Shown here: in pieces, positions 211-59,517 of the stretch
Numbering within the stretch: the stretch's first letter is position 1
How the letters are laid out: each line of letters starts with the position of its first letter
Assembly (NCBI RefSeq): GCF_003075435.1
Contig: NZ_QCZJ01000032.1
Coordinates: 1-60,337 of the forward strand
Source: Terrimonas sp.
GTDB taxonomy: Bacteria > Bacteroidota > Bacteroidia > Chitinophagales > Chitinophagaceae
Direction of reading: 5' to 3'
Length of the DNA: 60,337 nt
Position numbers and translations under genes: made by a program
Notes under the pieces: generated by a model
The model's database searches: none
What the model saw: the letters and a program-made list of their open reading frames with translations, nothing else
Told to the model about the DNA's origin: nothing

Positions 211-236
211 GCTGATCGCTGATAGCTAAATGCTGA
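211..236. repeat. Imperfect direct repeat, left copy
   Basis: This 26-base stretch matches 815-840 at 23 of 26 positions. The two copies lie on either side of the small lipoprotein gene. Both sit in low-complexity runs of gctgat/gctgac words, which look like a dispersed intergenic element. The rest of 1-240 shows no gene or RNA. Confidence 0.5.
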
Positions 237-240
237 TACC

Positions 241-717: not shown

Positions 718-814
718 TTGACTATACCATATAGAATATCATACCAGTATGAGATATCAGGTTTCAGGCAGGTATCAGGTTGTTATGCTGACAGCCGACT
801 GCTGATGGCTGGCG

Positions 815-840
815 GCTGATCGCTAATATCTAAATGCTTA
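815..840. repeat. Imperfect direct repeat, right copy
   Basis: This is the second copy of the repeat at 211-236 (23 of 26 identical). It overlaps the last codons of ilvE, so part of it is coding. Confidence 0.5.
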
Positions 841-1894: not shown

Positions 1895-1912
1895 AAAACA
1901 CTATTTTTGTTG

Positions 1913-1920
1913 CAAAGAAA
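1913..1920 (-). promoter_or_regulatory. Possible -7 element for ilvE
   Basis: On the minus strand this reads TTTCTTTG followed by CAAC, one base away from the Bacteroidota -7 consensus TAnnTTTG. It would start transcription about 12 bases before the ilvE start codon. No clear -33 TTG box was found at the right distance, so the call is weak. Confidence 0.3.
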
Positions 1921-1961
1921 CGAAAAAACCGGCTGGCTTAAAAGCCGCTAATCAAATTAAC

Positions 1962-2465
1962 ATGAGCTTAAAACAAATTATTTTGTCTCCCGAAACGCTG
2001 GCTCAGCTATATACTTCGCCTGTTATTGATACACAATCCACCGAAAAGCCCAACCCTGTAAAAGAACAAACAGATACCATAAAATATCTTGGATCAAATA
2101 AAAAAAATATCAGCATACTTGTAAGGGCTGCTGATGCGCCGTTTCTGAACGATAAGCTATTCAATTTTCTTGCAGGTATATTAAATGCCTGTAGACTTAA
2201 TATGGCAGATGTGGCATTAATTAATATTTTGTCTGCAAATAATGCCGGGTATACTGCCATCAACAATATTACCAATCCTGAAAAAACGATATTATTTGAT
2301 GTTAGCGCGCAGGACATATCATTGCCCTTACAGTTCCCGCATTTCCAGGTACAGCGCTTTAATAATGTAATGTACCTTTCTGCCCCCTCACTCAATGTAA
2401 TTGAGACTGATAAAGCCATAAAAGCACAGCTTTGGGCCAGTTTAAAACAGTTATTCCAATTATAA
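1962..2465 (+). CDS. Conserved hypothetical protein, possible psi (HolD)-like fold
   Basis: There is no signal peptide or membrane segment, so this 167-residue protein is cytoplasmic. After a variable N-terminus, residues from about 48 read as a hydrophobic strand (ISILV), then DAPFLNDKLFNFLAGIL, a DVALINI strand, a second strand (KTILFDV) and a C-terminal helix KAQLWASLKQLF. This order resembles the gammaproteobacterial DNA polymerase III psi subunit, which has a strand, a P-x-L-x-D helix, a strand, and a final helix with ALW. That resemblance is my inference and may be chance. The gene lies 10 bases upstream of rdgB on the same strand, so the two are probably co-transcribed, which would fit a nucleotide or replication role. 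Confidence 0.75.
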   Translation: MSLKQIILSPETLAQLYTSPVIDTQSTEKPNPVKEQTDTIKYLGSNKKNISILVRAADAPFLNDKLFNFLAGILNACRLNMADVALINILSANNAGYTAINNITNPEKTILFDVSAQDISLPLQFPHFQVQRFNNVMYLSAPSLNVIETDKAIKAQLWASLKQLFQL

Positions 2466-2475
2466 TTATTAACCT

Positions 2476-3072
2476 ATGCAGCAACTCATTTTTGCTACCA
2501 ATAATCAACACAAGGTTGCCGAAATACGTGCTTTCCTGGGAAACGGCTTTGATATTGTCACCCTGAAAGAAGCAGGCATTGATACCGACATTCCCGAACC
2601 TTATAACACGCTGGAAGAGAATGCCCGGACAAAATCTGAAACCATTTATAAAATGACCGGCACTGATTGTTTTGGAGAAGATACCGGGCTGGAAGTATAT
2701 ACTTTAAACGGAGAGCCGGGCGTAAAAAGCGCCAGGTATGCAGGTGATGGGCGCGATTTTGCAGCCAATATTGATAAATTATTGCACAATCTTGAAGGGA
2801 AGACCGATCGTTCAGCCCGCTTCAGAACAGTTATATCTTTAATAATCAATGGAAAAGAGCATCAGTTTGAGGGTATTTGCGAAGGGCAGATCATAGGGCA
2901 TTACCGTGGAACAGCCGGTTTTGGGTATGACCCCGTTTTTGTACCGGAAGGTGATACCCGTACATTTGCCGAAATGTCTCTGGAAGAAAAAAACAAATTC
3001 AGCCATAGAGGAAAGGCAATGAAAAAACTAATATCTTTCTTACTTAATAAGATAAAACACCCGCAGCAATAG
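2476..3072 (+). CDS. rdgB: Non-canonical purine NTP pyrophosphatase (Ham1/RdgB family)
   Basis: This enzyme hydrolyses ITP, dITP and XTP to the monophosphate and pyrophosphate, keeping deaminated purines out of DNA and RNA. All family signatures are present: the N-terminal nucleotide-binding TNNQHKVAEI (residues 8-17), the metal/base region GEDTGLEVYTLNGEPGV near 67, FGYDPVF near 150 and the C-terminal SHRGKAM. The length of 198 is normal. It is cytoplasmic. It follows the unknown gene at 1962 by 10 bases and precedes an ECF sigma gene by 37 bases, so a three-gene transcript is possible. Confidence 0.96.
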   Translation: MQQLIFATNNQHKVAEIRAFLGNGFDIVTLKEAGIDTDIPEPYNTLEENARTKSETIYKMTGTDCFGEDTGLEVYTLNGEPGVKSARYAGDGRDFAANIDKLLHNLEGKTDRSARFRTVISLIINGKEHQFEGICEGQIIGHYRGTAGFGYDPVFVPEGDTRTFAEMSLEEKNKFSHRGKAMKKLISFLLNKIKHPQQ

Positions 3073-3109
3073 CCAGGTAATTAACATGGCTCAATATTAA
3101 TGCAGAAAA

Positions 3110-6416: not shown

Positions 6417-6787
6417 GGGGCTGACCGGTTTTGACAGCAAAGTTCTTTGTACGAGTAAGCATGCGGTGCGTTGGATAATTAGCACCTTAATCTGAATATT
6501 CAACAATTTAAATGGCAATACACAGTATGCCATGGCTGCCTAATCAGTGATTAGTTAGTCATTTGGGCCGCCGTCCGGGTCTGTCTGTTACCGAGGGCCG
6601 CCGCCGACTTAAAAAGAAAACGGAATGCTGTTATGCAAGGCTGTGCGCATAACATAAGACCTATACAGCTAAGGAATACATTGGTATGTTGATGTCCGGT
6701 TTGTTCCCGACAATTAATCATCAAATAAGCATGTAGAAGGCGTATGGCGGATTTGTTTGGACCAGGGTTCGACTCCCTGCAGCTCCA
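6417..6787 (+). ncRNA. ssrA: Transfer-messenger RNA (tmRNA)
   Basis: tmRNA rescues ribosomes stalled on broken mRNA and tags the unfinished protein for proteolysis, working with SmpB. The 5' end GGGGCTGACC pairs with the 3' end CAGCTCC over seven base pairs (one G-U), forming the tRNA-like acceptor stem. The T arm reads GGTTCGACTCC, as in tRNA. The reading frame at 6514-6540 encodes the tag GNTQYAMAA, followed by TAA at 6541. The Gly start and YAMAA end match Bacteroidota tags as I know them. CCA is not encoded: ACAA follows the stem. The length of about 371 is typical. The pseudoknot region 6545-6730 is present but I did not fold it in detail. Confidence 0.96.
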
Positions 6788-6788
6788 C

Positions 6789-10119: not shown

Positions 10120-10515
10120 AAAAACAGGTTTGTGTTTGAATAGAATAAAGTGATCATCTGGAAAAGGCTAATTCATTTTTATATGCGGCAAGGACACATT
10201 TCACTGATTGTAAATTTAATCAGTTATTTTTTATTTATACTATAAAGGGGGCTGTAGGGTGCATTCCTGTTTTTGTACATTTATTGTATATAATTAGAAC
10301 CCGGAATACTCTGATTGTGCGGAACTTGCAGGATATACTCTGTGATATTCAGCCATGATCTGCGTTATCAGTTGTTATGCTTCGCCTTTTTTGTGCAGCG
10401 ACAATTTGGAATGTACTCACACTCCTCTGCATGCATCTTGATAAAATATTCTATATTTAAACTACCTATCTTATCCTGCGGCAACTATTATTATTTACAG
10501 GCTCATAAAGCGAAT
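10120..10515. other. Divergent intergenic region
   Basis: This 396-base region separates two divergently transcribed genes. It holds an AT-rich palindrome at 10203-10224 (ACTGATT, eight bases, AATCAGT), which might be a protein-binding site. The reading frame of the downstream TPR gene is open back to 10315, but that part encodes a Cys-rich, unconvincing peptide and is probably not translated. No RNA gene is seen. Confidence 0.4.
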
Positions 10516-13209
10516 ATGAATAAGCTGTATAGCGTTTTGCTTTTTCTTCTGGTTGCATTATGTCATAATGGAAATGCACAAAAACTATATGGTTTTGTAT
10601 TTGAGCAAAACAGCGGCAATAAACCGGTAACAGGAGTGATTGTAAAGTCGATGCTGGCAAACCAAACATTAACTACAGACAATGGCAGCTATACTTTAAA
10701 CTTTCAAAATGGTAAACCCGGCCATAGTGCTGTGCTTATTATTGAAAAGGAAAAATGGGTTATTACTGAAAAATCGAAACTTGAGGTAAATCTTCCGCTC
10801 GATCCCTTCAATCATCCGCACAATATAATCATGTGCAGGGCAGATGTTTGGGCTAAACAAAACCAGGATAACAAAATATTGCTAAACAAATTACTTAAGG
10901 ATGCTTTGCAAAAACAAAAGGCAGCATTAAATAAGCAAAGCAGCGATTATCAAAAAACGATTGACTCCCTGGAGGAACAATATGTAAGATCGCAGAGAAA
11001 CCTGGGTGAAATAACAGAAGCCTTAAGCCGGGTAAACCTGGACGACGTATCGGAAACCGAGAAAGCCGCTTATGCGTATTTTACTGAAGGAAAAATAGAA
11101 GAAGCTATCCTGCTTCGTGAGACATTGCAAAGTGAAAAAAACCTGTTAATTGCCAACCAGCGATTAAAGGAATTAAAAAGCAAAACGCTTGTCAATGATT
11201 CGGCTTTGGCAAGTGTATACAATACAATCAACCTGCATCGAAGGAATCTAAAAGAGGAAATTACCCTTGCACAACTTCGTTTCGATTGGAAAACGGCTGA
11301 GAGGAAATTAAAATTCCTTGCTGAAAACGACAGCCTTAATTATGAGAACCTTTTCAGCTATGGTGATTTTTTATATAATCAAAATGATTTTGATAAAGCG
11401 GATATGATTTTCGAAAAATTAATATCCGTATTCACCACCCTTAACCAGGCAAATGCAAATGCCTTTGGACCCAACCTGGCTGACGCATTATATAAATCAG
11501 GTATCATTAAAAAAACAAAGCATCAATTCAGTAATGCTGAAAGATTAATACAGCAATCCTACAGCATCTATAATAATTTATATAAAAAGGATGTAAATAC
11601 ATTTATTCAGCCCTTCACTGAGATTGCTGTCGCCCTTGCAGATATTCACGGAAGATTACGCCTGTTTTCAAAAGCTGAAAATGAATACCGGCAGGCATTG
11701 GTCATTATTGATCAAATCAAATCTTCAAACAGGAATATTTATACTTTACTATTGGCAGAAATACAAAGCGGGCGGGCAGCTTTAAGCATGTATACCAATG
11801 ATTATTCAGCGGCAGAAAAATTATTTAAGGAAGCATTAAGCAAACGAAGAAGTCTTGATAGCATATATCCTTTATCGCAGGAACCTGATATTGCCGCAGT
11901 TCAAACAAAGCTGGCTGCTGTATATATTCAGCAGAAAAAATTTGATGCAGCGAAAGTATTGCTTACACACTCGCTGGAGGTATACAAAAAATTTCAACAA
12001 ACTTCCCCTTTGATATTTACTCCGTTGGCTGCAGAAGTACAAGCACTTTTAGGAGATGTATATACGGTAAGGGCAGACCTTGGCACTTATGCCGTAAACA
12101 AACCAGACAGTACTGCTGCCCATGATTACTTCAGTTCATCATTGCAATCATTCCGTATACTTGCCACTCAAACCCCGGAAGTATATGAACCGGCGCTTGC
12201 CAATACCTGCTACCATTTTGGTATATTCTTTAACGAGGCAGCAGAATCAGATTCTGCAGAAGCATTATACACGCAAGCCATCGGTTTATATGAAAAGCTT
12301 GCCAGTCAAACACCTGCCGCTTTTGATATACCATTGGCAAAAGCGCAGCAAAAGCTGGCGAAATTATACACGCTTCACAATAGTGAATCTGCAAAAATTT
12401 TATTAAGCAAATCACTTGCTATTTATAAAAAGTATGCCGCGGCAAAAGAAAATATGGAATTGCCAATAGCCGACATAATGTTTGATGTGGCAATTGTTAA
12501 CCGCTATGCCGGCACCGCATACTCAAAACAGGAAAAAGAACATTTGCTTAAGCAAAATTTGCAGGAGTTTAAAGAACTACTGCCTGTTTATAAGCGCCTG
12601 GATGATAAGTATCCCGGTGTATACAAAGAGGATATCGAATCAATTAAAACATTTATTTCAAGCACAGATAATGAATTAAAAAGAATTCAGCAACTGGATT
12701 CTTCAGTATACACTTCGGTAAGTGATTCAGATAGAGCAGTGCAGGAGTTGTCGGGTATGATGTATGATATTCAGACGGCTACTTCTCTTAGTAATAAACT
12801 TATGCTGCAACAATCGCTGGTTGCTAAGAAAAAGGCATATATAAAAGCAGGTAATTTTAGCGATATCATATCATTAGGACATGATTTAAACAGCTTATCT
12901 TGGTATTTATTATTCAGTAAGAAATATAAAGAGGCTGAAGAGGCGGCTACAGAAGCATTAAATCCTGCATTTAAAAAACCGGAAGGTTACGACAAAGAGA
13001 TTGAGTATGCAAAAGCAAACCTGGCGCACGCACTTTTGTTGCAAAACAAATTTGATGATGCAAAAAAAACATATTTATCATTAAAAGGCAGGAACTATAT
13101 AGATGGAACAAGTTATGTTAGCATGTGCATAGATGATATAGACCAATTGGAAAAGGCAGGAATAACACATAAAGATTTTGAAAAAATAAAAACTTTACTG
13201 GTAGAATAA
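10516..13209 (+). CDS. Exported tetratricopeptide-repeat protein with N-terminal CarboxypepD-reg-like domain
   Basis: The start at 10516 gives a clean Sec signal peptide (NKLYSVLLFLLVALCHNGNAQ); the frame is open upstream but lacks signal-like sequence. Residues about 21-95 resemble a carboxypeptidase regulatory-like (Ig-like) domain: YGFVFEQNSGNKPVTGVIVK and TTDNGSYTLNF. A charged coiled-coil-like part follows (about 110-215), and then many TPR or TPR-like helical repeats up to the end, with recurrent pairs such as FDKADMIFEKL, YSAAEKLFKEAL and FDAAKVLLTHSL. TPR arrays are protein-binding scaffolds. The gene sits 11 bases before a TIR-domain gene, so the two are almost surely co-transcribed and may act together at the inner membrane. 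Confidence 0.85.
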   Translation: MNKLYSVLLFLLVALCHNGNAQKLYGFVFEQNSGNKPVTGVIVKSMLANQTLTTDNGSYTLNFQNGKPGHSAVLIIEKEKWVITEKSKLEVNLPLDPFNHPHNIIMCRADVWAKQNQDNKILLNKLLKDALQKQKAALNKQSSDYQKTIDSLEEQYVRSQRNLGEITEALSRVNLDDVSETEKAAYAYFTEGKIEEAILLRETLQSEKNLLIANQRLKELKSKTLVNDSALASVYNTINLHRRNLKEEITLAQLRFDWKTAERKLKFLAENDSLNYENLFSYGDFLYNQNDFDKADMIFEKLISVFTTLNQANANAFGPNLADALYKSGIIKKTKHQFSNAERLIQQSYSIYNNLYKKDVNTFIQPFTEIAVALADIHGRLRLFSKAENEYRQALVIIDQIKSSNRNIYTLLLAEIQSGRAALSMYTNDYSAAEKLFKEALSKRRSLDSIYPLSQEPDIAAVQTKLAAVYIQQKKFDAAKVLLTHSLEVYKKFQQTSPLIFTPLAAEVQALLGDVYTVRADLGTYAVNKPDSTAAHDYFSSSLQSFRILATQTPEVYEPALANTCYHFGIFFNEAAESDSAEALYTQAIGLYEKLASQTPAAFDIPLAKAQQKLAKLYTLHNSESAKILLSKSLAIYKKYAAAKENMELPIADIMFDVAIVNRYAGTAYSKQEKEHLLKQNLQEFKELLPVYKRLDDKYPGVYKEDIESIKTFISSTDNELKRIQQLDSSVYTSVSDSDRAVQELSGMMYDIQTATSLSNKLMLQQSLVAKKKAYIKAGNFSDIISLGHDLNSLSWYLLFSKKYKEAEEAATEALNPAFKKPEGYDKEIEYAKANLAHALLLQNKFDDAKKTYLSLKGRNYIDGTSYVSMCIDDIDQLEKAGITHKDFEKIKTLLVE

Positions 13210-13220
13210 ACCTGGCACAA

Positions 13221-14291
13221 ATGGCAGAAGCGCAGGAAAAGCCGATAGATATTTTTATTTCGTTTAAAAGTGCTGATGTAGAGTTAGCAAAAACGCTGTA
13301 TGCTTACCTGCGCTCAAAAGGACTATCTGTTTTTCTGTCATCGGAAACTTTACCACAGTTAGGCAGCAGCGATTATCGAAAGGCTATTGATAAAGCTTTG
13401 GATGAATGCAGGCATATGATTGTAGTAAGCAGTAAGGTTGAATACCTCAATTCATCATGGGTTGAAGCAGAATGGGGATTTTATATAGGAGAAAAAAGAG
13501 CCGGAAGAAAGAAGGGAAACATTCTTACTGTTGTAACGGATGATATTGAAATCAAAGACCTGCCTGCAAGCCTTAGGTATTACCAGGTTATTTTCTACAA
13601 TAAAGAAAATTTCGATCAGATTGCCGCTTATACCGGTAAAGATTATGAAGACCCTCAGTATAAGCCTAAGCCTGTTAGCTTTTTCAAATCAAAAAAAATA
13701 TTGCCGGTTGTTTTAATATTGATTGCAGGAGCGGCCATATGGTATTATATCAATGAAAAGAATAAACCTTTTGATATTACTGTTTTTGCGGAGAAAGAAA
13801 AAGCACTACAATTAAACGCTGACTACCCGGCCTTTGAAAACGGACTGTTGAATTTATATATTGGTAACAAGGAAGATAACAGAACTATTTTAGCCAACCA
13901 GCCTGTTACGTTTCAACAAGTGCCGGCATCTTTTTTAAATCAAAAAGCCGCCGTAAAAATGAATTCTCCTTATTGGAAACTTACTGCAGATTCTATTATT
14001 ATCAGCAAGTTGCCAGTTCATTTATCGCTGATACCTAATGGAACATTGGCAACTATTTATGGGAATATTAAAGACGTACAGGGCCAACCTGTTGCAGATT
14101 GCTTAATAAGCGTTGATACAGACACAGTCATCAACGCCAGTGCAGCAGGACTGTTTAAAATAATATTACCTTACCACATGCAAAAGAGCCAGTACAAGAT
14201 AGTTGTAGGCAAAGAAAATTACCAATCCCAGCGACTGGATTATTTTCCCGGATCAGGAAACATAGATATCATTATGAAAAAAACGAAGTGA
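13221..14291 (+). CDS. Transmembrane TIR-domain protein with extracytoplasmic CarboxypepD-reg-like domain
   Basis: Residues about 8-130 form a TIR domain: the opening strand DIFISFKSAD, the box-2-like region VFLSSETLPQLGSS, and SSWVEAEWGFYIG, in which Glu84 lies four residues after Trp80. That spacing matches the catalytic Glu of NAD-cleaving TIR domains. A single membrane helix follows (ILPVVLILIAGAAIWYYI, about 160-177). The remaining 180 residues would face the periplasm and end in a beta-rich domain (YGNIKDVQGQPVADCLISVD) of the same general type as the N-terminus of the preceding protein. TIR domains act in signalling and antiphage defence by making or destroying nucleotide signals. The function here is unproven. 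The gene ends one base before the convergent gene at 14293. Confidence 0.88.
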   Translation: MAEAQEKPIDIFISFKSADVELAKTLYAYLRSKGLSVFLSSETLPQLGSSDYRKAIDKALDECRHMIVVSSKVEYLNSSWVEAEWGFYIGEKRAGRKKGNILTVVTDDIEIKDLPASLRYYQVIFYNKENFDQIAAYTGKDYEDPQYKPKPVSFFKSKKILPVVLILIAGAAIWYYINEKNKPFDITVFAEKEKALQLNADYPAFENGLLNLYIGNKEDNRTILANQPVTFQQVPASFLNQKAAVKMNSPYWKLTADSIIISKLPVHLSLIPNGTLATIYGNIKDVQGQPVADCLISVDTDTVINASAAGLFKIILPYHMQKSQYKIVVGKENYQSQRLDYFPGSGNIDIIMKKTK

Positions 14292-40904: not shown

Positions 40905-41507
40905 ATGCTTAGCGCTTCTGAAGATAGAGAAAGATGTCTTTTAGATGAGGTAGCCAATGGTGATGAAAAGGCTTATGCTGTGTTATTCCACACTTACCGA
41001 CCCAAAATTTACTCTTTTATCTTTCGTATATCCGGCTCAGTCCAATCAGCCGAAGATGTTACCCAGGATGTATTCGCTAAAATATGGCAACGCAGGGCAG
41101 ATATGGTCAGCATTAAAAACTTTAATGCCTATATTTTCCGTGTAGCCCACAATCACTTTCTGAATGCCATGAAAAAAATGGCCAAAGAGACACTTGTGCT
41201 ACAAAAAATTGAAAAACAATCAGCTTCAGTGCAAGAAGTGTGTGAAGGGCTGGAAAGAAAAGAACTTCGCCGCTTATTTCATTTTGTGGTGGATGAACTG
41301 CCGCAAAAGCAGAAGATGGTATTCCTGCTAAGCAAGGAAAAAGGAATGAAACAGGAAGAAATTTCTGAGCAGCTTAATATTTCTGTAGTAACGGTTAAAA
41401 GCCATATGACGCAGGCATTCCGGAACATACGGAAGAAATTAAAAGCCGTTTATTACTTTATTACTATACCTTTTGTAATTATGCTCACCTCTTTTTTTAT
41501 GTGTTAA
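40905..41507 (+). CDS. ECF sigma factor of the PUL (Bacteroidota SusC-linked type)
   Basis: This 200-residue sigma-70 family protein has region 2 (GDEKAYAVLFHTYRPKIYSFIFRI, AEDVTQDVFAKIWQRR, NFNAYIFRVAHNHFLNAMKK) and region 4 (LPQKQKMVFLLSKEKGMKQEEISEQLNISVVTVKSHM). The C-terminus carries a hydrophobic tail (YYFITIPFVIMLTSFFMC) that is often seen in this subgroup. It is followed by a FecR anti-sigma gene 119 bases downstream and then SusC. By analogy with such trios it should activate the SusC promoter when the SusC receptor meets its ligand and FecR releases or helps it. Confidence 0.95.
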   Translation: MLSASEDRERCLLDEVANGDEKAYAVLFHTYRPKIYSFIFRISGSVQSAEDVTQDVFAKIWQRRADMVSIKNFNAYIFRVAHNHFLNAMKKMAKETLVLQKIEKQSASVQEVCEGLERKELRRLFHFVVDELPQKQKMVFLLSKEKGMKQEEISEQLNISVVTVKSHMTQAFRNIRKKLKAVYYFITIPFVIMLTSFFMC

Positions 41508-41626: not shown

Positions 41627-42817
41627 ATGGAAGAATTAGATGAAAGACTCTACTATCTGATGGATCGCCTTTTCAACAATAGCTGCACACAGGCAGAAAA
41701 AGAAGAGCTGGCTTATTGGATAGAAAAAGCACAGGATGATACAAAGCTAAAGCACTATTTGTCGGATATGTGGAACCGGTTTGAACCTTTGGAAGACATG
41801 GCTGAAGAAAAAGCAAACCACCTGTTTAGTTCTGTTACCGGGACCAATACACCTGCTGTTCTTCAGTCAAAATCAAAAAGCAGGTATTTGTTGTTTTCAG
41901 GCATTGCTGCTGCCTGCATCCTGGTCATAGCCAGCGGAGCTTATATCTTTTTTTCCGGACAATCGAAAATCAATACGACCCACGCAATTGCTGATAAAAA
42001 ACAAAGTACTGTAAATGACGTTGCGCCGGGGCAATTTAAAGCAAAGCTCACATTATCAGATGGATCACAGGTTGTGTTGGATACGGTTCGGGGACAGATC
42101 ATTACCGGAGAAGGAGCTGCACAGATAAATACTTCTAACGGTCACCTTTACTACAACATCTCTACGGAAAAACAAAAAGAAACAGTATACAATACACTTG
42201 CCACCAACAGGGGAGAACAATATTCCATGACTTTATCGGATGGTACAAAACTCTGGCTGAACGCGGCTTCTTCTGTACGGTTTCCTGTAGCTTTTACCGG
42301 CAATTACCGCGATGTGGAAATTACAGGAGAAGTGTATTTTGAAGTAGCCCGCAATAAAGAACAGCCGTTCAGGGTAAAAGCAGGAGAAGAGCAAATTGAA
42401 GTACTGGGAACGCATTTTAATATTAATGCCTACAGCGACGAACCTTTTATACGTACTACTTTGATTGAAGGATCGGTGAAAGTGAATCTCGGCACCTCAA
42501 GCACTTTACTTAAACCCAATGAGCAGGCCCTTGTAAAAAATGGAGACACTAAAATAAACGTTTCCCCCGCAGACGGGCAGGCTGCTATTGCATGGAAGAG
42601 CGGTTATTTTAAACTGACTAATAGCGAAGTATCCGACATTATGCGGCAAATAGCACGCTGGTATGATATTGAAGTAGTCTACAAAGGAAATGTTCCATCC
42701 GGTACCATTTCCGGCGAAGTGCCGAGAAGCCTGAACTTATCGGAAGTATTAAAAGTGCTGGTACTAAGCGATGTGCGTTGCCAACTGGAGGGAAAAACAC
42801 TGATTATTACTAATTGA
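41627..42817 (+). CDS. FecR-type anti-sigma factor with DUF4974 domain
   Basis: This 396-residue inner-membrane regulator has a cytoplasmic head (1-85, containing DERLYYLMDRLFNNSCTQ and ELAYWIEKA), one membrane helix (about 87-109, YLLFSGIAAACILVIASGAYIFF) and a periplasmic FecR domain. That domain carries RGEQYSMTLSDGTKLWLNAAS, GEVYFEVARNKEQPFRV and VLGTHFNINAY. The C-terminal DUF4974 domain (SGYFKLTNSEVSDIMRQIARWYDIEVVY) would contact the signalling domain of SusC. It lies between the sigma gene and susC, the usual order for a transenvelope signal relay. Confidence 0.95.
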   Translation: MEELDERLYYLMDRLFNNSCTQAEKEELAYWIEKAQDDTKLKHYLSDMWNRFEPLEDMAEEKANHLFSSVTGTNTPAVLQSKSKSRYLLFSGIAAACILVIASGAYIFFSGQSKINTTHAIADKKQSTVNDVAPGQFKAKLTLSDGSQVVLDTVRGQIITGEGAAQINTSNGHLYYNISTEKQKETVYNTLATNRGEQYSMTLSDGTKLWLNAASSVRFPVAFTGNYRDVEITGEVYFEVARNKEQPFRVKAGEEQIEVLGTHFNINAYSDEPFIRTTLIEGSVKVNLGTSSTLLKPNEQALVKNGDTKINVSPADGQAAIAWKSGYFKLTNSEVSDIMRQIARWYDIEVVYKGNVPSGTISGEVPRSLNLSEVLKVLVLSDVRCQLEGKTLIITN

Positions 42818-49962: not shown

Positions 49963-51525
49963 ATGGAAATGCCTCTCACTCCGTTAGAATTTTCAAGACG
50001 CGCCCGGAAGCTGTATGCCGGCAGGGTAGCGGTGATTGATGGTGAGCTGAAGTATACCTACAGCCAGTTTTTTGATCGTTGCGATCGCTGGTCGTATGCA
50101 TTGCAACAAATGGGTATTGTGCGGGGAGACCGTGTAGCGTATATAGCTACCAATACACATGCCCAGTTGGAAGCATTTTATAGTGTTCCACAAACCGGGG
50201 CGATCCTGGTTCCTGTAAACTACAGGCTCTCCGCCGAAGAGTTTGCTTACATCATCAACCACAGCGGAGCGGTAGCTGTATGTGTACATAGCGATTACCT
50301 GACGGCAGTAGAAAACATAAAAGACCAGTTACCGGGTGTAAAGCATTTTATTGCACTGGAAGGAGAAAGAGAAGGATGGGTAAGCTATGAAAAACGCATA
50401 AAGCTATCGCGGGTAAAATATGCACCCGTAGACATTCAGGAGCAGGACCTGATTACCATCAACTATACCAGCGGCACAACAGCCCGACCCAAAGGCGTGA
50501 TGATCACGCACCGGAACGCCTATATGAATTCAATCGGCTCTCTTGTTCATTTTGATCTTTCTGTAAAAGAGCGCTACCTCTGGACCCTCCCTATGTTTCA
50601 TGCCAACGGGTGGACTTTTGTGTGGACCATCACGGCCTGTGGTGGCACGCATGTCTGCCTGAGAAAGACCGACGCCCAAAGCATTTTCCATTTCATTAAC
50701 CGGGAAAGCATAACCTTGTTTTGCGCAGCTCCCACGGTATTGATCAGTATTGTTAACGCGCCGGAAGGTTTGCGTAAGCAAGCTCCTGCAGGCATTCGTG
50801 TGATTACAGCGGGCGCCCCGCCTGCAGCGGCAACTATTGAGCGCATTGAAAATGAGCTGGGGTGGAATCTTATACAGGTATACGGGCTGACAGAAACGGC
50901 GCCTTTTATTTCTATTTGCGAACCACTTCCTGAACACTGCCATCTCACCCCATCTCAACTGGCTGTTATTAAAGCAAGGCAGGGGGTAGAGCTGATCACT
51001 TCCGGGGAACTGATGGTAATAGATGGAGAAGACAACGAAGTGCCGCACGATGGTAATACAATGGGAGAAATAGTAGCCAGGGGAAATGTAGTTATGAAAG
51101 GCTATTACAACGACCCGGAGGCTACCAACAAAGTGTTGGTAAATGGTTGGTTCCATACCGGGGATATGGCTGTAATACACCCTGATGGCTATATAGAGAT
51201 ACGGGACAGGGCAAAAGATATTATCATCAGCGGCGGTGAGAACATCTCTTCCGTAGAAGTAGAATCGGTTTTATTGCGCCATCCGTCTGTTAAAGAAGTG
51301 GCTATTGTAGGGATGCCGCATGAAAAGTGGGGACAGTCACCCCACGCTTTTGTGGTGCTGCACCAGGGATATTCCGTTACGGAAGACAATCTCAGGTCGT
51401 TTGTAGGGCAACACCTTGCATCTTTTAAAAAACCGCAGTGGGTAACTTTCGTTAAAGAGCTTCCTAAAACAGCTACCGGGAAGATACAGAAATATGTATT
51501 GCGGGGCGGACGATCTAATATTTAA
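49963..51525 (+). CDS. Acyl-CoA synthetase (AMP-forming, long/medium-chain or aryl acid type)
   Basis: This cytoplasmic ligase activates a carboxylic acid with ATP to the acyl adenylate and then the CoA thioester. ATG 49963 gives the usual start MEMPLTPLEF; the frame is open to a GTG at 49897 that overlaps the previous stop, so a longer form is possible. The P-loop YTSGTTARPKG is at 168-178, with QVYGLTETAPF near 305, GWFHTGDMAVIHPDGYIEI near 390, the hinge RDRAKDIIISGGENIS, and the catalytic Lys in LPKTATGKIQK near the end. At 520 residues it is full length. Its place inside a PUL is unusual and suggests that the acid comes from the glycan. The true acid is not known. Confidence 0.93.
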   Translation: MEMPLTPLEFSRRARKLYAGRVAVIDGELKYTYSQFFDRCDRWSYALQQMGIVRGDRVAYIATNTHAQLEAFYSVPQTGAILVPVNYRLSAEEFAYIINHSGAVAVCVHSDYLTAVENIKDQLPGVKHFIALEGEREGWVSYEKRIKLSRVKYAPVDIQEQDLITINYTSGTTARPKGVMITHRNAYMNSIGSLVHFDLSVKERYLWTLPMFHANGWTFVWTITACGGTHVCLRKTDAQSIFHFINRESITLFCAAPTVLISIVNAPEGLRKQAPAGIRVITAGAPPAAATIERIENELGWNLIQVYGLTETAPFISICEPLPEHCHLTPSQLAVIKARQGVELITSGELMVIDGEDNEVPHDGNTMGEIVARGNVVMKGYYNDPEATNKVLVNGWFHTGDMAVIHPDGYIEIRDRAKDIIISGGENISSVEVESVLLRHPSVKEVAIVGMPHEKWGQSPHAFVVLHQGYSVTEDNLRSFVGQHLASFKKPQWVTFVKELPKTATGKIQKYVLRGGRSNI

Positions 51526-51544: not shown

Positions 51545-54220
51545 ATGGGTGTATTTAAAATAATGCTGAAAACCACGTACCTGAGCTTGTTGCTATTTTT
51601 TGAGGCGTATGGAAACGGGTTACCGATCGACGGGAAAGCCACCAGGGAAACAGTTTATCTATATAAAAACCTTGTGGAACTGTCAAAAAGCGGGCAGTTC
51701 CTTTTCGGCCACCAGGATGCATTAGCCTACGGCGTTGGCTGGAAGTCCATACCCGGTAAAAGTGATATAAAAGAGGTGACCGGAGATCACCCTGCCTTGT
51801 GCGGCTGGGACCTGGCAGGCATTGAAACAGGAAGCCCGGTAAATATAACCGGTGTTCCTTTTACAGAAATAAAGCAGCATACGGTAGAAGGATATGAACG
51901 TGGAGAAATAATTACCTATAGCTGGCACATGATGAACCCGCTGACCGGGGGAGCTGCCTGGGATGCGAAAAAAGGAACGGTTTCTTCTGTTTTGCCCGGT
52001 CATGAAAAACATGAAATATACAGGCACTGGCTGGATGCAGTTGCCGGGTTTATGCTTAGCCTGAAAGATAAAGACGGCGTATCAATACCTGTTATCCTCC
52101 GCCCTTTTCACGAGCTTAACGGCAACTGGTTCTGGTGGGGAGGAAAGAATACCACGCCAGGTGAATATAAGCAGCTCTGGCAGTTTACCGTAAGTTACTT
52201 GCGGGATGAAAAGAACGTTCACAATGTTTTGTATGCCTTCAATACGGATGTATTCAAATCTGAAAATGAATTTTTACAAAGATATCCCGGCAATGAATGG
52301 GTGGATATCGTAGGCTTTGATATTTACCAGCAAAAACATCACTCCAACCAATCTTTTGCCCGCAAGCTGGGAAAAGGCCTGGCAATGCTGAATGCTATCG
52401 CCTTACAACAAAATAAGATACCTGCGCTAACGGAATTCGGATATAATAAACTGCCCGATGATAAATGGTGGACACAGGTTTTTTCAGAAACGGTAAAAAA
52501 GCACAGGCTGGCATATGCGATGTCCTGGCGTAACTCCGGAACAACCGAATACTATGCGCCCTATGCGGGACAGCAGTCTGCTGAAGATTTCAGGTCATTC
52601 TACCATTCAGGCATTGCTTTGTTCAGCAAAGAAGCCCGGCGCAGAAAAATGTATCAATCAACGGATTCTTCCACGGTTAAAGTTTTTGAAACCAATATTA
52701 CTATGGATGACGGGATTGCGCTGAGTACTCGTATTTTTCTGCCAGACACCAATAAAGCCTTTGCCGCGGTATTGATCCGCACTCCTTACAATAAAGAGCT
52801 TGAGATGTGGATAGATAAAAGATTTCTTTCCAACAATATCGCGATCATTATACAGGATGTAAGAGGAAAATATAAATCCGGGGGTGCATTTTATCCATTC
52901 GCAAATGAAAGAGCAGACGGATTATCTACATTGAGGTGGATAAGAAAACAACCCTGGTCAAATGGCATAGTAGGCGGCTGGGGAGTAAGCTATATGGGCT
53001 ATACCCAATGGGTGATAGCAGATTCGCTGGATGCGGCCGCGCCACTGCTTACGAGCGACGATATGTATAGCTTCATATACCCGGACGGTGTTCTTTCCTT
53101 GCAATCTGCCTTTTTATGGGGGTATGCCAATGCTGCAAAAAGCGGGGAAGACATGTCGGCGGAAAGAGTCCGTCAACGGTTAAGCCGTTTGCCGCTCTCC
53201 GTAGCAGCCGACTCTATCGCATTCCTGCTGGACTGGCTGAAGCATGAAAAAAGAGACGGGTATTGGGACAAACTGCAATTTCACGGACCCATTACCTCTC
53301 CTGTCATTTCCATAGCAGGCTGGTACGATATTTTTTTGAAAGGCCAGCTAAACGGCATGCAGCAATTAGCGAAGGAGGGAAACCCGCAAAACAAATATAT
53401 AATCGGACCCTGGGCACATGGACTAACAGGCTATAAAAACGATTACGGAGGAGAAAAGCGAACCGGATCTTACGGGCAAATGAGTTTTGAGTATATGCTG
53501 AGCGCTTTGAAAGGCAGGAGCGTCCATCTTCCACCTCCGCTTAAGGAAAGCAGGTTTAATTTATTCATAATGGAAAGAAATGAATATGCAGGTTCAGATG
53601 TGTGGCCCCCTGAAGAAACTACCAGCGTTCCTTATTACCTGCAGGCAGATCATTCATTAAGCATTCAGCCTCCGGCAAAAAGCAAAATATATGCTTATAC
53701 ATATGACCCCTCCGATCCTTATCCCAATTATGGCGGGACCTTTTTGGGCGATAGCGTAGGACCGGCTTTGCAAAACAGGAATATCAGCAGGACCGACCAG
53801 GTAAATTTTGAAACGCCTGCTTTTGAAGAACCGCTTATATTGTTAGGTCCCATATCAGCTTCTCTTTGGCTGTCAGGCAATACAGACTGTAGTGATATAA
53901 TCGTATGCCTAGAAGATGTATTTCCCAATGGAAAGATCATTAACATACAGGAAGGCGCTTCAAAAGTTTTTTTTAAAGGCAAAGAAGCGCAAAAACAAGA
54001 CATTTCCGTATGGGCTACAGGTTACCAGTTAAACCCGGGGCACAAATTGCGGGTAACTATATGCCCGAGTCGTTTTCCCAGGTTTAACAGAAGCCTTAAT
54101 ACCTGCGAGCCCATATACGAAGCAAAACAGGTACATAAGGCAACCCAAAAAATTCATGTTGGACCTGGAACGCCTTCCGGTATTTACCTGCCTGTATATA
54201 CATTCAATAAACCAAAATAG
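51545..54220 (+). CDS. Two-domain enzyme: GH26 beta-mannanase fused to CocE/NonD-type esterase
   Basis: The start at 51545 gives a signal peptide (KIMLKTTYLSLLLFFEAYGNG); 51563 and 51494 are alternatives. Residues about 28-370 form a GH26 clan-A glycosidase: the acid/base Glu190 lies in RPFHELNGNWFWWG and the nucleophile Glu297 in ALTEFGY, with SWHMMNPLTGG near 126. Residues about 375-891 form a CocE/NonD (S15-like) alpha/beta hydrolase: the nucleophile Ser482 is in GGWGVSYMGY, Asp595 in AGWYDIF and His625 in GPWAHG, followed by the jelly-roll X-Pro dipeptidyl-peptidase-C-like domain. GH26 enzymes mostly cut beta-mannan. The second half should cleave an ester or amide. I infer a secreted enzyme that both cuts the backbone and removes side acyl groups. 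Confidence 0.92.
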   Translation: MGVFKIMLKTTYLSLLLFFEAYGNGLPIDGKATRETVYLYKNLVELSKSGQFLFGHQDALAYGVGWKSIPGKSDIKEVTGDHPALCGWDLAGIETGSPVNITGVPFTEIKQHTVEGYERGEIITYSWHMMNPLTGGAAWDAKKGTVSSVLPGHEKHEIYRHWLDAVAGFMLSLKDKDGVSIPVILRPFHELNGNWFWWGGKNTTPGEYKQLWQFTVSYLRDEKNVHNVLYAFNTDVFKSENEFLQRYPGNEWVDIVGFDIYQQKHHSNQSFARKLGKGLAMLNAIALQQNKIPALTEFGYNKLPDDKWWTQVFSETVKKHRLAYAMSWRNSGTTEYYAPYAGQQSAEDFRSFYHSGIALFSKEARRRKMYQSTDSSTVKVFETNITMDDGIALSTRIFLPDTNKAFAAVLIRTPYNKELEMWIDKRFLSNNIAIIIQDVRGKYKSGGAFYPFANERADGLSTLRWIRKQPWSNGIVGGWGVSYMGYTQWVIADSLDAAAPLLTSDDMYSFIYPDGVLSLQSAFLWGYANAAKSGEDMSAERVRQRLSRLPLSVAADSIAFLLDWLKHEKRDGYWDKLQFHGPITSPVISIAGWYDIFLKGQLNGMQQLAKEGNPQNKYIIGPWAHGLTGYKNDYGGEKRTGSYGQMSFEYMLSALKGRSVHLPPPLKESRFNLFIMERNEYAGSDVWPPEETTSVPYYLQADHSLSIQPPAKSKIYAYTYDPSDPYPNYGGTFLGDSVGPALQNRNISRTDQVNFETPAFEEPLILLGPISASLWLSGNTDCSDIIVCLEDVFPNGKIINIQEGASKVFFKGKEAQKQDISVWATGYQLNPGHKLRVTICPSRFPRFNRSLNTCEPIYEAKQVHKATQKIHVGPGTPSGIYLPVYTFNKPK

Positions 54221-54236
54221 TTTAAACGAAAATCTT

Positions 54237-55481
54237 ATGACCGTCAATAAACTTTTGTATGTATTTGTATTGATGTGCAGCAACACGTTTGCACAAACCA
54301 AGGCGTTTAAAAGTATACGGGATTTTAATGTAACGCCCTCTAATACTGCGGCCGTAAATAAGATCAACCTGCAAAAAGCAATTGACTGGGCTTCCCGGAA
54401 AGGCGCTGCCTTATTTGTAGAGCCCGGTGAGGAACCCTATGCCGTTGATGGCGGAATTATCCTTAAACCCAATGTATCGCTGATTGGCGCCAATGGACCC
54501 GTTCCAGGGGGAACTTCTCATCCTTCAAAAAAGCAACCTGTGGGCAGTGTATTTAAGATCACAGATAAAACAAATTCCTTCATTACCGTAGAATCTGCCA
54601 CACAAATCAAGGGTATACAATTTTGGTATCCTGACCAAACGCTTACCGATGCAAAAGTAATCATTCCTTATCCCGCCACTATTCAAAATGCAAAAAACAA
54701 GCTGGTGGAAGGTGTATACCTCTCCTGCCTGACTTTTTATGGAGAATACCTCGCTATGGACTTTACTGCAAGCCTGCGGCACCCGGTGGCGCTGGTAATA
54801 TCTGAGCATTGCTACGGGTATCCTTTAAGCGGTGAATTTATCCGCATCAGCCATTGTTATGATATACCACGCATATTGCATTGCCATGTGAACCCTGCAC
54901 TTCAACGGTTGTTTAAAGGAGATTACTCCCCTGCGGTTATCGACGCGGTGGTGGCACAAAAAACCTATGCCTATGCTATTGACTATACAGACAATGCCCA
55001 GTTGATGGACCTCTTCACGTTTGGAACCTACGGCGGTATTATGCTCGGCGGCGATACCTACGGACAACTGACCAACTTTAATTTTGATTGTGTAGCCACC
55101 GGCATTTATAAAAAGGGAAGCCAGGCAGTGAACAGGAACTGGCAGATATCACAGGGTTCCATCATTTCAAACACCGGGGAAAAAGTAAATGACCTGCATC
55201 CTGTTATTATAGAAGGAGAAGGGCACACTTCTTTAAGCAATGTTGAGATCTTTTCCGGCCCAAACCTGGCCCTGACCACTGTACCCGAACATCAATCCTG
55301 GGATTATTTACTGGTAAGAGGAAACAAAAAACTCACTGTAACCCTTACGGGGTGCAGAATGGTAAAATACATGGCTGATAATCCCATAAGTGTAGAAAAT
55401 AAAGCTGCTGTTATACAGGTAATAGGTTGTGTAGACAAAAACCAGGCGCCGTTAAATTGTATAATCAATGAGCAGCCATGA
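54237..55481 (+). CDS. Exported pectin-lyase-fold (right-handed beta-helix) protein
   Basis: The start at 54237 yields the signal peptide NKLLYVFVLMCSNTFAQ. The rest (about 395 residues) begins with SIRDFNVTPSNTAAVNKINLQKAIDWASRKGAALFVEPGE, the start of pectate-lyase-3/GH28-type domains. Then DGGIILKPNVSLIGANGPVPGG and rungs of beta-helix follow (FITVESATQIKGIQFWYP, FIRISHCYDIPRILHC, NWQISQGSIISN). I could not identify catalytic Asp or Lys residues of known lyases or polygalacturonases, so the activity is open. It lies 16 bases after the GH26-CocE gene in the PUL and is probably secreted to the periplasm or surface. Confidence 0.8.
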   Translation: MTVNKLLYVFVLMCSNTFAQTKAFKSIRDFNVTPSNTAAVNKINLQKAIDWASRKGAALFVEPGEEPYAVDGGIILKPNVSLIGANGPVPGGTSHPSKKQPVGSVFKITDKTNSFITVESATQIKGIQFWYPDQTLTDAKVIIPYPATIQNAKNKLVEGVYLSCLTFYGEYLAMDFTASLRHPVALVISEHCYGYPLSGEFIRISHCYDIPRILHCHVNPALQRLFKGDYSPAVIDAVVAQKTYAYAIDYTDNAQLMDLFTFGTYGGIMLGGDTYGQLTNFNFDCVATGIYKKGSQAVNRNWQISQGSIISNTGEKVNDLHPVIIEGEGHTSLSNVEIFSGPNLALTTVPEHQSWDYLLVRGNKKLTVTLTGCRMVKYMADNPISVENKAAVIQVIGCVDKNQAPLNCIINEQP

Positions 55482-56662: not shown

Positions 56663-58027
56663 TTACTTATTACTATGATAATACATCAAATCAATGATGC
56701 TGGCAGGAAGCTCCTTAGTATTCCAATGTTCGTGGATTGACAAAGCGGTACCCATAGATGTAGCCTGGGCTACAGATGCTGCGTATACTTCAATATTAGG
56801 AAATGCATCTGCAAGCAAGTGCATATACACAGGGTTCTTACCAAAACCTCCATCTACAAAAATGCGTTTTACTTCACGGCTTCCTTCAAGTACTAATTTT
56901 GTAGAAATAACCTGCTTGTAAATAATATCTGCAATAAGTTGATGATAGGCATGTTCATAATTTGAAAACAAATTAATATCCCTGGAAGGAAAAGCTGTGA
57001 TTTGCCCATCAGAGAGATTAAAGCCTGATTGATCATTAGTTAAGCGGTCAATAATACTGTTATCGAATTTTACTGTAGTATAATAATTAGCGGGCTTATT
57101 AAAATGTGTTGCCAATAATTTAACCTGCTGCTCATGTTCATAGCCTGCAAATAATCGAGAAGCTTTAACCGGTTGCTTTTTGTAAGTAAGATAACATAAG
57201 CAATCTTGTTTCAGTTGCTCTTCGGTTAAAGGAGTATCATTAAAAGGATTCAGGCTTATTGCCCATGTACCTGTAGATAATAAAATGAATGGCTCTTTAA
57301 AATTCAGCAAATAAGGAATCAGTGCTGCTGAGCTATCATGTAGTCCGATACCCATTTTTACTGTTCCTTTTTGTATTGCAATATCTATAGCATCGTCAGC
57401 AGATTGTATAGGTGCTAACTTATCTGCAATTCCTTCTTTCGTCACCCATTCATGATATTGCATGGTAGTAAAATCCCACAGCATGGTATGACAACCAATA
57501 CTGGTAATATCAGATGAAAACATTCCGTTAAGCAGCGAACTGATATATTGAGGTAAATGCAGGGAGTATTTTATTTTCTTAAAAACCTCTGGCTTGCTTT
57601 TACTGATATTATACAATAACATACCTGAATTTAAACTACCTAATACCGGAGACGCTGTATGCTGCGACACCTTAACAACACCTCCATACTTTTCGTAAAA
57701 TGCTTTTTGTAAATCTTCAGGATATGGTTTAAGATAATTGTATAATGGTGCAACGGGTTTTCCTTTTTCATCTATATGAACTAAACTTGCTCCGTAAGCC
57801 GTTACATTTACCGCCACAATATCAAACTCCTTTAATTGCTGTATTTCCTCAAATGATTGCTTTACCCAATTGGTGAGCGCCTGCACATCTTCACACATAT
57901 CTCCATCATCATCCTGTATTTCTGTAAGATTGGTACTTTTTTCATATACAATCTCATAATCTTCATTAAACAGAAATACTTTTTTATTTGTTTTTCCTAT
58001 GTCGTATATCGCTATTACGGGGATCAT
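56663..58027 (-). CDS. FGGY-family carbohydrate kinase, probable rhamnulokinase
   Basis: This is a 454-residue cytoplasmic sugar kinase of the ASKHA fold. The N-terminal phosphate motif is AIYDIGKTNKKVFLFNEDYE. IGLHDSSAALIPYLL near 225 and FILLSTGTWAISLNPFND are typical of FGGY kinases of the rhamnulokinase/fuculokinase group. The C-terminal ADP-binding part has VKRIFVDGGFGKNPVYMHLL. Its neighbours on the same strand (L-rhamnose isomerase, mutarotase, dehydrogenase/aldolase) point to L-rhamnulose as substrate, giving L-rhamnulose 1-phosphate. L-fuculose is the alternative. It is the last gene of the cluster. Confidence 0.87.
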   Translation of the reverse strand: MIPVIAIYDIGKTNKKVFLFNEDYEIVYEKSTNLTEIQDDDGDMCEDVQALTNWVKQSFEEIQQLKEFDIVAVNVTAYGASLVHIDEKGKPVAPLYNYLKPYPEDLQKAFYEKYGGVVKVSQHTASPVLGSLNSGMLLYNISKSKPEVFKKIKYSLHLPQYISSLLNGMFSSDITSIGCHTMLWDFTTMQYHEWVTKEGIADKLAPIQSADDAIDIAIQKGTVKMGIGLHDSSAALIPYLLNFKEPFILLSTGTWAISLNPFNDTPLTEEQLKQDCLCYLTYKKQPVKASRLFAGYEHEQQVKLLATHFNKPANYYTTVKFDNSIIDRLTNDQSGFNLSDGQITAFPSRDINLFSNYEHAYHQLIADIIYKQVISTKLVLEGSREVKRIFVDGGFGKNPVYMHLLADAFPNIEVYAASVAQATSMGTALSIHEHWNTKELPASIIDLMYYHSNK

Positions 58028-58242
58028 TGTTTGAGAATGCCGGAATTTGAAATTTAATATTTAAACCCTGCCTACCGACAGGCACTACAACACAAAGCCA
58101 CAAGGTTCGCAAAAATATTTTTACGTTTAAAAACTTCCAGTTTCAGTTTTGCGTTTTTACATTTCGCCTCTCACTTTTCACCTTTGCTTGTTCTTCATTC
58201 ACCCCTGCACCATTCTTACCACATACCACCAATCACTTACTA
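58028..58242. other. Intergenic region of the rhamnose cluster
   Basis: This 215-base gap separates the isomerase (upstream on the minus strand) from the kinase. It contains a short hairpin around 58069-58084 (TGCCT...AGGCA) and a C/T-rich stretch. No RNA gene or ORF is convincing. The gap may hold a secondary promoter for the kinase. Confidence 0.4.
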
Positions 58243-59517
58243 CTACAATCCTGTTGCTACTGTTTTTGCTCCACGATTCTTAATTAATTTTGCTCTCACT
58301 TTTTCGTTGCGGAAAAAGCCCACAGGATCAAGTACACCGCCTGCACGTAACCGGGCTTCAGCAACCAGGGATCTTAAATCTGTACGGAAGGTATTCTGTA
58401 ATATTTCCTGGGCAGCTACCACGTCATTATTTTGTTGAGCTTCCTTCAGCGCTTTTCTATCAACACTTAAAGCTTGTGCATACGATAACATAATTGCTTC
58501 AACAGACTGCAATAAATCTTCCAGGGGATCTTTTACATTATGCGAGGCATCAATCATCCAGCCCATGTCTGTAACATGATCCATTCCTTTGGCATCCATT
58601 CCTTCCACTAATTCATTAAATATGAGGAATAGCTGGTAAGGCTTAATACTTCCTGCAGTTAAATCATCATCGCCATATTTAGAATCGTTGAAATGGAACC
58701 CACCCAACTTTTCTTCCATCAATAACAAAGAAACAATTTGTTCGATATTAGCATTGGGTAAATGGTGACCAAGATCAACCAAGGTATATGCTTTTGGACC
58801 AAGTTTGCTTGCATATAAATATGATTGCCCCCAATCGCCAACTGTGGTAGAGTAGAAATTAGGTTCAAAAGCTTTGTACTCTACAAATATTTTCCAGTCG
58901 TCGGGCAATGCTTTGTATATCTCCTGCAATCCGGCTAACGTATGTTGAAAAGCTTCCCTGAAATTTAACTGACCGGGAAAACAAGAGCCGTCAGACAACC
59001 AAACGGTTAATGATGTTGACCCTAATTCAACACCATATTTTATCACCTCAATATTATGATCAATGGCCTGTTGACGAACAGCTTTATTTACATTTTGCAG
59101 TGAACCAAACTTATAACTCAATGCCTGATCAGGTTGATCCTGGAAAGTATTGGAGTTCATTGCATCGAACCGCAAACCATTTTGTGCGGCAAGCGCTTTA
59201 ATATGCGAGGCGTTCTCCGGAATATCCCATGGAATATGCAAAGAAATAGCCCCACTGGACTGGTTCAGCTTATGCAGCAAACCTATATCTTCTATTTTTT
59301 CTTCAAGGTTGCGCGGTTCACCGCCGCCTGAAAACCGACCGAACCTTGTACCCCCGGTACCCAAAGCCCAACTGGGTATTGCTACCTGAAACTCTTTTAA
59401 TTTAGCTATTATCTTTTCTGCATTCGTTATAGTTGAAACAGTATAATCGAGCCTGCGCTTATGATCGTTCAGCAAGCCCTCATTATAATTATCTATGCTA
59501 TATTTCTCTACTTGCAT
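58243..59517 (-). CDS. rhaI: L-rhamnose isomerase, RhaI (Pseudomonas stutzeri) type
   Basis: The enzyme interconverts L-rhamnose and L-rhamnulose in the cytoplasm. The 424-residue sequence resembles the broad-specificity L-rhamnose isomerase type and not E. coli RhaA. Family marks are PSWALGTGGTRFGRF near 48, SLHIPWDIPENASH near 94 and DAMNSNTFQDQ. The metal-site residues are visible as Glu in FVEYKAFEP, Asp in TLVDLGHHLPN and His/Asp in GGFHFNDSKYGDDDL, as expected for this barrel. It lies 13 bases downstream of the mutarotase gene. Related enzymes accept other aldoses, so the substrate rests partly on context. Confidence 0.93.
   Translation of the reverse strand: MQVEKYSIDNYNEGLLNDHKRRLDYTVSTITNAEKIIAKLKEFQVAIPSWALGTGGTRFGRFSGGGEPRNLEEKIEDIGLLHKLNQSSGAISLHIPWDIPENASHIKALAAQNGLRFDAMNSNTFQDQPDQALSYKFGSLQNVNKAVRQQAIDHNIEVIKYGVELGSTSLTVWLSDGSCFPGQLNFREAFQHTLAGLQEIYKALPDDWKIFVEYKAFEPNFYSTTVGDWGQSYLYASKLGPKAYTLVDLGHHLPNANIEQIVSLLLMEEKLGGFHFNDSKYGDDDLTAGSIKPYQLFLIFNELVEGMDAKGMDHVTDMGWMIDASHNVKDPLEDLLQSVEAIMLSYAQALSVDRKALKEAQQNNDVVAAQEILQNTFRTDLRSLVAEARLRAGGVLDPVGFFRNEKVRAKLIKNRGAKTVATGL

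Follow-up and report, generated by a model that had tools for sequence, protein, structure and literature searches.

In the 60,337-nt stretch of Terrimonas sp. DNA analysed here (NCBI RefSeq assembly GCF_003075435.1, contig NZ_QCZJ01000032.1, positions 1–60,337; hereafter the window), a single gene at nt 51545–54220 of the plus strand codes for a protein in which a GH26 glycoside hydrolase is followed by a CocE/NonD-type hydrolase. The gene lies in an operon with a SusC/SusD pair that was found in two other genomes of the genus, both metagenome-assembled: Chitinophagaceae bacterium ACE_BAC12 (genome G007, locus L023), where the two halves are fused as well, and Sphingobacteriales bacterium 44-15 (genome G008, locus L024), where GH26 and esterase are separate genes.

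Two complete hydrolases in one open frame

The features of the fusion gene, all on the plus strand, are the following:

51545–54220 (+), GH26-CocE fusion gene, 891 aa, single open frame
51629–52423 (+), GH26 domain, Pfam PF02156, residues 29–293, E 8.9e-45
52112–52114 (+), E190, predicted acid/base, from alignment A1
52433–52435 (+), E297, predicted nucleophile, from alignment A1
52637–52696 (+), joining stretch of 20 residues, fusion point at about 52658–52663, from the DNA alignment with L023 and L024
52709–53422 (+), Peptidase_S15-type alpha/beta hydrolase core, Pfam residues 389–626, E 2e-43, with Y415, S482, D595 and H625
53585–54178 (+), PepX_C domain, Pfam residues 681–878, E 2.1e-22

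Translation of the 891-aa frame showed zero internal stops, and an alternative in-frame ATG occurs upstream, at nt 51494. The protein scored 153.8 bits against PF02156 (cut-off 20.2), the homology with BoMan26A extending past the Pfam stretch to residue 360, and its residues 386–884 matched the NCBIfam model TIGR00976 (CocE_NonD) with an E value of 9.2e-78 and 262.6 bits (cut-off 66.3). The presence of a complete GH26 and a complete CocE/NonD (S15 plus PepX_C) hydrolase in one frame was therefore confirmed, in agreement with the fused polypeptide proposed by the first-pass annotation of this DNA: the frame is unbroken and GH26, Peptidase_S15 and PepX_C all lie far over their Pfam cut-offs. The catalytic residues it had named, E190, E297, S482, D595 and H625, were likewise all correct, and Y415 can be added as an oxyanion-type tyrosine. 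Indeed, Y415, S482, D595 and H625 align with Y44, S117, D259 and H287 of cocaine esterase, of which we take the first to be the oxyanion tyrosine and the other three the catalytic triad. Both glutamates, placed at the ends of strands 4 and 7 as expected for GH26, are found in 28 of the 29 rows of the alignment of GH26 homologues (A1), the 29th row being the L024 esterase only; the roles of the acid/base and the nucleophile glutamate in GH26 enzymes are described in passages of PMC5217682. The six catalytic motifs checked are all conserved in L023 and in the matching separate genes of L024.

A stop or frameshift at about nt 52640–52690, which the same annotation had named as one way for the fusion to fail, was looked for and none was found. 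The assembly of L023 is also continuous over the joint and, since this second, independent assembly shows an identical open joint, an assembly artefact or a missed stop is ruled out.

On inspection by eye, the N-terminus of the fusion resembles a Sec signal peptide with no lipobox cysteine, and nothing like a type IX sorting domain was recognised in the protein. The earlier description as secreted thus holds as far as an export signal-like start is concerned, but a periplasmic place would be at least as likely as release outside the cell. A periplasmic location is suggested for BoMan26A in PMC5217682.

Fused and split forms, selection and rarity

Twelve genomes of the window genus, its own included, are present in our 98-genome sample, and three of the twelve have a GH26 gene with a CocE partner: the window genome (G000) and G007, in fused form and with 90–91% identity between the two proteins, and G008, as two adjacent genes. 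The GH26 frame of L024 closes at a stop codon (nt 11159–11161), and the esterase lies in a different frame, with candidate starts at nt 11148, overlapping the GH26 end, and nt 11196, followed by a stretch that by eye resembles a signal peptide. DNA alignment over the joint was clean on either side, with a net excess of 169 bp in L024 compared with the window. This extra DNA comprises the last GH26 codons with the stop, and the esterase start with its entire signal-peptide-like stretch. The joint of L023 is identical to that of the window. The simplest explanation would be one in-frame deletion within a two-gene ancestor, a direction that is favoured because the opposite event would require insertion, at exactly that site, of a signal peptide together with a change of frame. 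The first-pass annotation had described the fusion without the split pair of the sister species and without the acyl-CoA synthetase of the operon, both of which were found here. A single genus thus offers the two operon genes in both their unfused and their fused state, and these natural parts could serve to measure what is gained by linking a glycan-cutting enzyme with an esterase.

Purifying selection acts on both halves. By the Nei-Gojobori method, the ratio of nonsynonymous to synonymous substitution rates (dN/dS) between the window and L023 was 0.13 for GH26 (339 codons) and 0.16 for CocE (507 codons), and between the window and L024 it was 0.15 and 0.11, respectively, the synonymous sites of CocE being near-saturated in the latter comparison (dS 1.76). 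For the linker a value of 0.50 was obtained between window and L023, over 20 codons only and so too short to weigh.

To establish how rare the pairing is, overlapping genome samples were searched at E ≤ 1e-3 (98 genomes), E ≤ 1e-30 (395 genomes of the phylum) and E ≤ 1e-40 (395 genomes of the class); in the larger samples a fusion of a distant GH26 with a distant CocE could escape these thresholds. The fusion was found in two of the 98 genomes (G000 and G007), and in the window genome alone among both the phylum and the class genomes. At the thresholds used no genome besides the three operon species showed a GH26-CocE pair. Among GH26-relative contig loci, 80 of 232 were covered, with up to 10 kb of flanking DNA in either direction, or less where the contig ends: the fusion occurs in one (L023) and the split pair in L024, and no CocE homologue was found within the DNA covered in the other 78 (phmmer E ≤ 1e-5, frames of at least 80 aa). 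A common, catalogued architecture is thus not borne out in the genome samples, and the rarity supposed at first holds in the searches made. No viral carriage was found; as for plasmids, 444 records matched and, among the best 5 of the 444, none had a single location covering 80% of the query.

When the esterase half was compared with 394 genomes of the family, eight matches were retrieved at E ≤ 1e-30, three being the operon species (74–100% identity) and five showing 32–34% identity. No GH26 was found in the frames of the CocE-type homologues L107, L108 and L109, a Pfam scan having been made for L107 only, on the part of its 1460-aa frame that the locus contains; L110 (598 aa) and L111 (622 aa), judged by frame length, are too short for an added full GH26. 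L107 (nt 1–3096, +), from a genome of the same family, carries a CocE/S15 hydrolase behind a transglutaminase-like domain in its 1460-aa open frame. A further CocE-type match, G548:C2:134116-135825, comes with a 1474-aa open frame and itself contains one TAG. Joining of GH26 to another domain is in itself nothing unusual in this bacterial family, since L006 and L013 have GH26 joined to a GH5-like domain.

The two halves and their operon

The best solved relatives of the GH26 half are BoMan26A of Bacteroides ovatus (4zxo, E 2.4e-84) and CjMan26C of Cellvibrio japonicus, with which it has fold and catalytic residues in common. In the AlphaFold model this half has predicted local distance difference test (pLDDT) values mostly above 90, and Foldseek retrieved 4zxo as the best hit (TM 0.95 by target length). 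According to passages of PMC5217682, BoMan26A yields mainly mannobiose and CjMan26C is an exo-mannobiohydrolase; in BoMan26A loop 2 closes the cleft, Arg-327 of loop 8 keeps it in place, Arg-324 and Glu-328 form a salt bridge, and a −3 mannosyl is still accommodated. Loop 2 of the window GH26 aligns with that of BoMan26A without gaps. The GH26 half may thus be of the mannobiose-forming type, its exo mode being uncertain. The term mannanase used for it at first holds as far as GH26 membership is concerned, but its nearest relatives are of the mannobiose-forming exo type and not typical endo-mannanases. No second GH26 was matched in the window genome, where the fusion accounts for the only one.

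The best solved relative of the esterase half is cocaine esterase, aligned over the full length (E 1.1e-55), the best amino-ester hydrolase reaching 3.6e-17. Residues F510, W525, F597 and L734 of the fusion align with W151, W166, F261 and L407 of cocaine esterase, which presumably line its acyl pocket, and the same F, W, F and L are present in the esterases of L023 and L024. The paralogue L002 of the window genome has D, F, E and E at these positions, L111 has D, F, E and D, and in L107 E, W and F are followed by a gap. We assume that acidic acyl-pocket residues mark the subgroup of amino-acid ester hydrolases and X-Pro peptidases; none of them is present at the four positions in the fusion. 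From its sequence, a bulky hydrophobic acyl group appears more likely than an aminoacyl one and, in our judgement, also more probable than acetyl. Of the ester or amide decoration originally proposed the ester is retained, and the amide is made less likely by the acyl pocket, which resembles that of cocaine esterase and lacks the acidic residues of L002.

The other genes of the operon, in which the fusion gene lies between the acyl-CoA synthetase and the 441-aa protein, are listed below:

40905–41507 (+), sigma-70-type (extracytoplasmic function-like) factor; homologue in G008, the G007 stretch not reaching there
41627–42817 (+), FecR-type anti-sigma factor (Pfam); kept in L023 and L024
42954–46436 (+), SusC/RagA outer-membrane transporter (Pfam, NCBIfam); kept in L023 and L024
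46495–48111 (+), SusD-type surface binding protein (Pfam); kept in L023 and L024
48179–49900 (+), GxGYxYP putative glycoside hydrolase (Pfam); kept in L023 and L024; mechanical open reading frame opens at 48020
49963–51525 (+), acyl-CoA synthetase (AMP-binding), cytoplasmic by appearance (Pfam, NCBIfam); kept in L023 and L024; mechanical open reading frame opens at 49897
54237–55481 (+), 441-aa protein with no Pfam family, signal-peptide-like start and, by eye, a beta-helix-like motif; kept in L023 and L024
55650–56579 (+), BD-FAE-type esterase with signal-peptide-like start (Pfam); kept in L023 and L024; last conserved operon gene

From FecR to BD-FAE, with GH26 and CocE either fused or adjacent, the order is common to all three genomes and the genes are co-directional. 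A SusC/SusD pair, co-directional degradative genes and a regulator are all present, as in a polysaccharide utilization locus (PUL). The flanks past the operon differ: an FGGY kinase and an L-rhamnose-isomerase-like gene of the window have no downstream homologue in G007 and G008. Because the flanking stretches differ between the three genomes, the operon is regarded as a unit. The rhamnose-type genes (nt 56663–59517, −), being on the opposite strand and without homologues downstream of the operon in the G007 and G008 stretches, were rejected as part of the system; the NCBIfam scores of kinase and isomerase are under the cut-offs and their names are tentative.

The acyl-CoA synthetase matched PRK06187 (long-chain fatty-acid-CoA ligase) above cut-off, its best match, PRK08162, being under its own cut-off, and its solved relatives include long-chain ligases and feruloyl-CoA synthetase; these matches are compatible with more than one type of acid. 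Its presence within a SusC/SusD operon in three species out of three is unusual company, and its substrate could name the decoration of the glycan.

At E ≤ 1e-40 the GxGYxYP protein was matched in one of 395 phylum genomes, that of the window, the sample not being known to include G007 or G008. For the 441-aa protein, in which a pectate-lyase-like beta-helix start was suspected by eye and whose predicted structure has a pLDDT of 30.7, matches were found in six of 294 family genomes, three being the operon-bearing species. In two of the other three, which have a distant homologue, a GH92 gene adjoins, GH92 being an alpha-mannosidase family; in the third, G019, no glycoside hydrolase was found among the four neighbours scanned. 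Passages of PMC4071793 also bear on GH92 as an alpha-mannosidase family, and place GxGYxYP proteins in an alpha-mannan-responsive locus of B. thetaiotaomicron, although, according to that paper, no catalytic activity had been detected for them. GH92 neighbours and GxGYxYP company are weak hints at a mannose-containing substrate.

Proposed role, alternatives and known systems

The explanation that we regard as probable is that the fusion is a two-domain exported enzyme of a glycan-uptake operon of SusC/SusD type. From a beta-mannan-like chain the GH26 half would free short beta-mannosides, mannobiose being the most likely product, and from this chain or pieces of it the CocE-type half would take off an acyl group in ester linkage, which is probably not acetyl but aromatic or fatty; the freed acid would be imported and then activated by the acyl-CoA synthetase of the operon. 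Use of the released non-acetate acid is proposed mainly because the position of the ligase in the operon is constant. As to its origin, adjacent and probably overlapping operon genes would have been joined by a single deletion of the GH26 gene end and the esterase signal peptide, after which one export signal would serve both halves.

Some observations weigh against this explanation. Loop 8 of the window GH26 is two residues shorter than that of BoMan26A, precisely at Arg-327 and Glu-328, and the exo mode is uncertain because these positions fall in a gap; length and sequence of this stretch vary among the A1 homologues. None of the usual mannan partners (GH36, GH130, epimerase, GH2) is found among the Pfam matches of the operon; GH130 and GlcNAc-2-epimerase-family genes occur elsewhere in the genome, on other contigs, GH36 and GH2 having been sought within the operon only. 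Moreover, a pocket of the hydrophobic type (W, W, F, C) is shared by L108, L109 and L110, and the short stretches examined around L108 and L109 contain no glycan operon, so that a hydrophobic pocket alone does not imply a sugar ester. The structure prediction suggested at first was confident for the GH26 half but not for the esterase half, where pLDDT is mostly below 50 and no usable pocket is seen, and the reading of the pocket rests on sequence.

A more conventional mannan enzyme, in which mannanase and deacetylase are conveniently paired, the CocE half acting as an acetyl-mannan esterase and the acyl-CoA synthetase being incidental, seems unlikely to us, even if acetyl is the commonest acyl group on plant beta-mannans. 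The pocket is hydrophobic and cocaine-esterase-like, and a fatty/aryl-type acyl-CoA ligase, unneeded for acetate, which is activated by other enzymes, is found in all three operons. In favour of this interpretation, an acetyl xylan esterase is among the solved relatives of the operon's BD-FAE esterase, and PMC13276840 describes a mannan system from Bacteroidota in which two esterases deacetylate. That the esterase half would instead cleave an amide or peptide decoration, as an amidase or peptidase of the kind of the S15 X-Pro enzymes or the amino-acid ester hydrolases, is very improbable: the S15/PepX_C families do include such enzymes, but the solved amino-acid ester hydrolases match at 3.6e-17 versus 1.1e-55 for cocaine esterase, and the pocket has none of the acidic residues seen in L002 and L111.

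A different question is whether the two sites are coupled at all, as the genes could have been joined neutrally, by a chance harmless deletion. We consider this possible, though not the likelier case; it is compatible with the proposed two-domain enzyme, the odds of the two not being exclusive. The joint sits at the natural GH26 end and the mature esterase start with a short linker, the fusion occurs in 2 of 12 genus genomes and the linker is loosely constrained, if dN/dS over only 20 codons is taken as a guide, all of which fits a neutral event; adjacency, shared operon and short linker are, however, equally expected under functional coupling. Strong purifying selection on both halves, and retention of the fusion through about 9% protein divergence, speak against it.

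Going beyond the two-domain enzyme itself, we tentatively suggest a "sugar-plus-acyl" system, in which fusion and BD-FAE esterase would strip and cut a glycan or glycolipid acylated with aromatic or fatty groups, the sugar entering via SusC/SusD and the ligase making the freed non-acetyl acid fuel or building block. If true, the fusion would catalyse the first, committing step of an uptake system dedicated to this purpose. Mannosylerythritol lipids and hydroxycinnamoylated mannans are candidate substrates; the open-access literature gave nothing of use on how mannosylerythritol lipids are broken down.

As for known systems, both halves are of known families; what is new is the GH26 + CocE/NonD pairing and the operon ligase. 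Compared with BoMan26A, the window protein lacks the arginine that holds loop 2 and the glutamate beside it, and has an esterase fused; the B. ovatus locus, in the passages of PMC5217682, has a GH36 partner of which there is none in the window operon. Cocaine esterase resembles the fusion in its full-length alignment, in its Tyr/Ser/Asp/His set and in its hydrophobic acyl pocket; unlike it, the fusion is exported by appearance, stands behind a glycoside hydrolase and lies within a glycan-uptake operon. The alignment has gaps where cocaine esterase, an enzyme from Rhodococcus, has its helical lid. In the PDB title of 3puh cocaine esterase is called a dimer.

A glycosidase and an esterase in one chain are also found in PDB 6mly, known to us by its molecule name "Bifunctional GH43-CE protein", but both its glycosidase and its esterase are of other families. 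The "new glycan-degrading design" announced by the first-pass annotation cannot be maintained in that breadth: since hydrolase-esterase fusions already exist, the novelty is limited to the CocE/NonD partner and to the operon with a ligase. L006 and L013 have GH26 as one half too, the partner looking by eye like a second glycosidase, of GH5 type, and not an esterase. To our knowledge, no acyl-CoA ligase has been described in loci of glycoside hydrolase-esterase fusions. The open-access literature of PubMed Central (PMC) yielded no description of the GH26 + CocE/NonD pairing, nor any cocaine esterase with a glycoside hydrolase in a polysaccharide utilization context. In the same literature, titles and abstract beginnings on GH26, mannanases, esterases and bifunctional mannanase-esterases mention no such fusion, and none suggests a CocE-type carbohydrate esterase. 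The CocE-type family is known mostly from drug and antibiotic esters, and a glycan operon that includes an acyl-CoA ligase would be a candidate physiological setting for a hydrolase of this type.

Elsewhere in the window, a TPR-repeat protein followed by a TIR-domain protein is encoded at nt 10315–14291 (+). No PADLOC match was obtained for the TPR protein; the TIR part gave weak matches, the best with PDC-S66 (1.1e-10), those with the SAVED-TIR and ThsB models being weaker, and the two genes are possibly a signalling or defence pair. A transfer-messenger RNA gene, with tag peptide GNTQYAMAA, is located at nt 6417–6788 (+).

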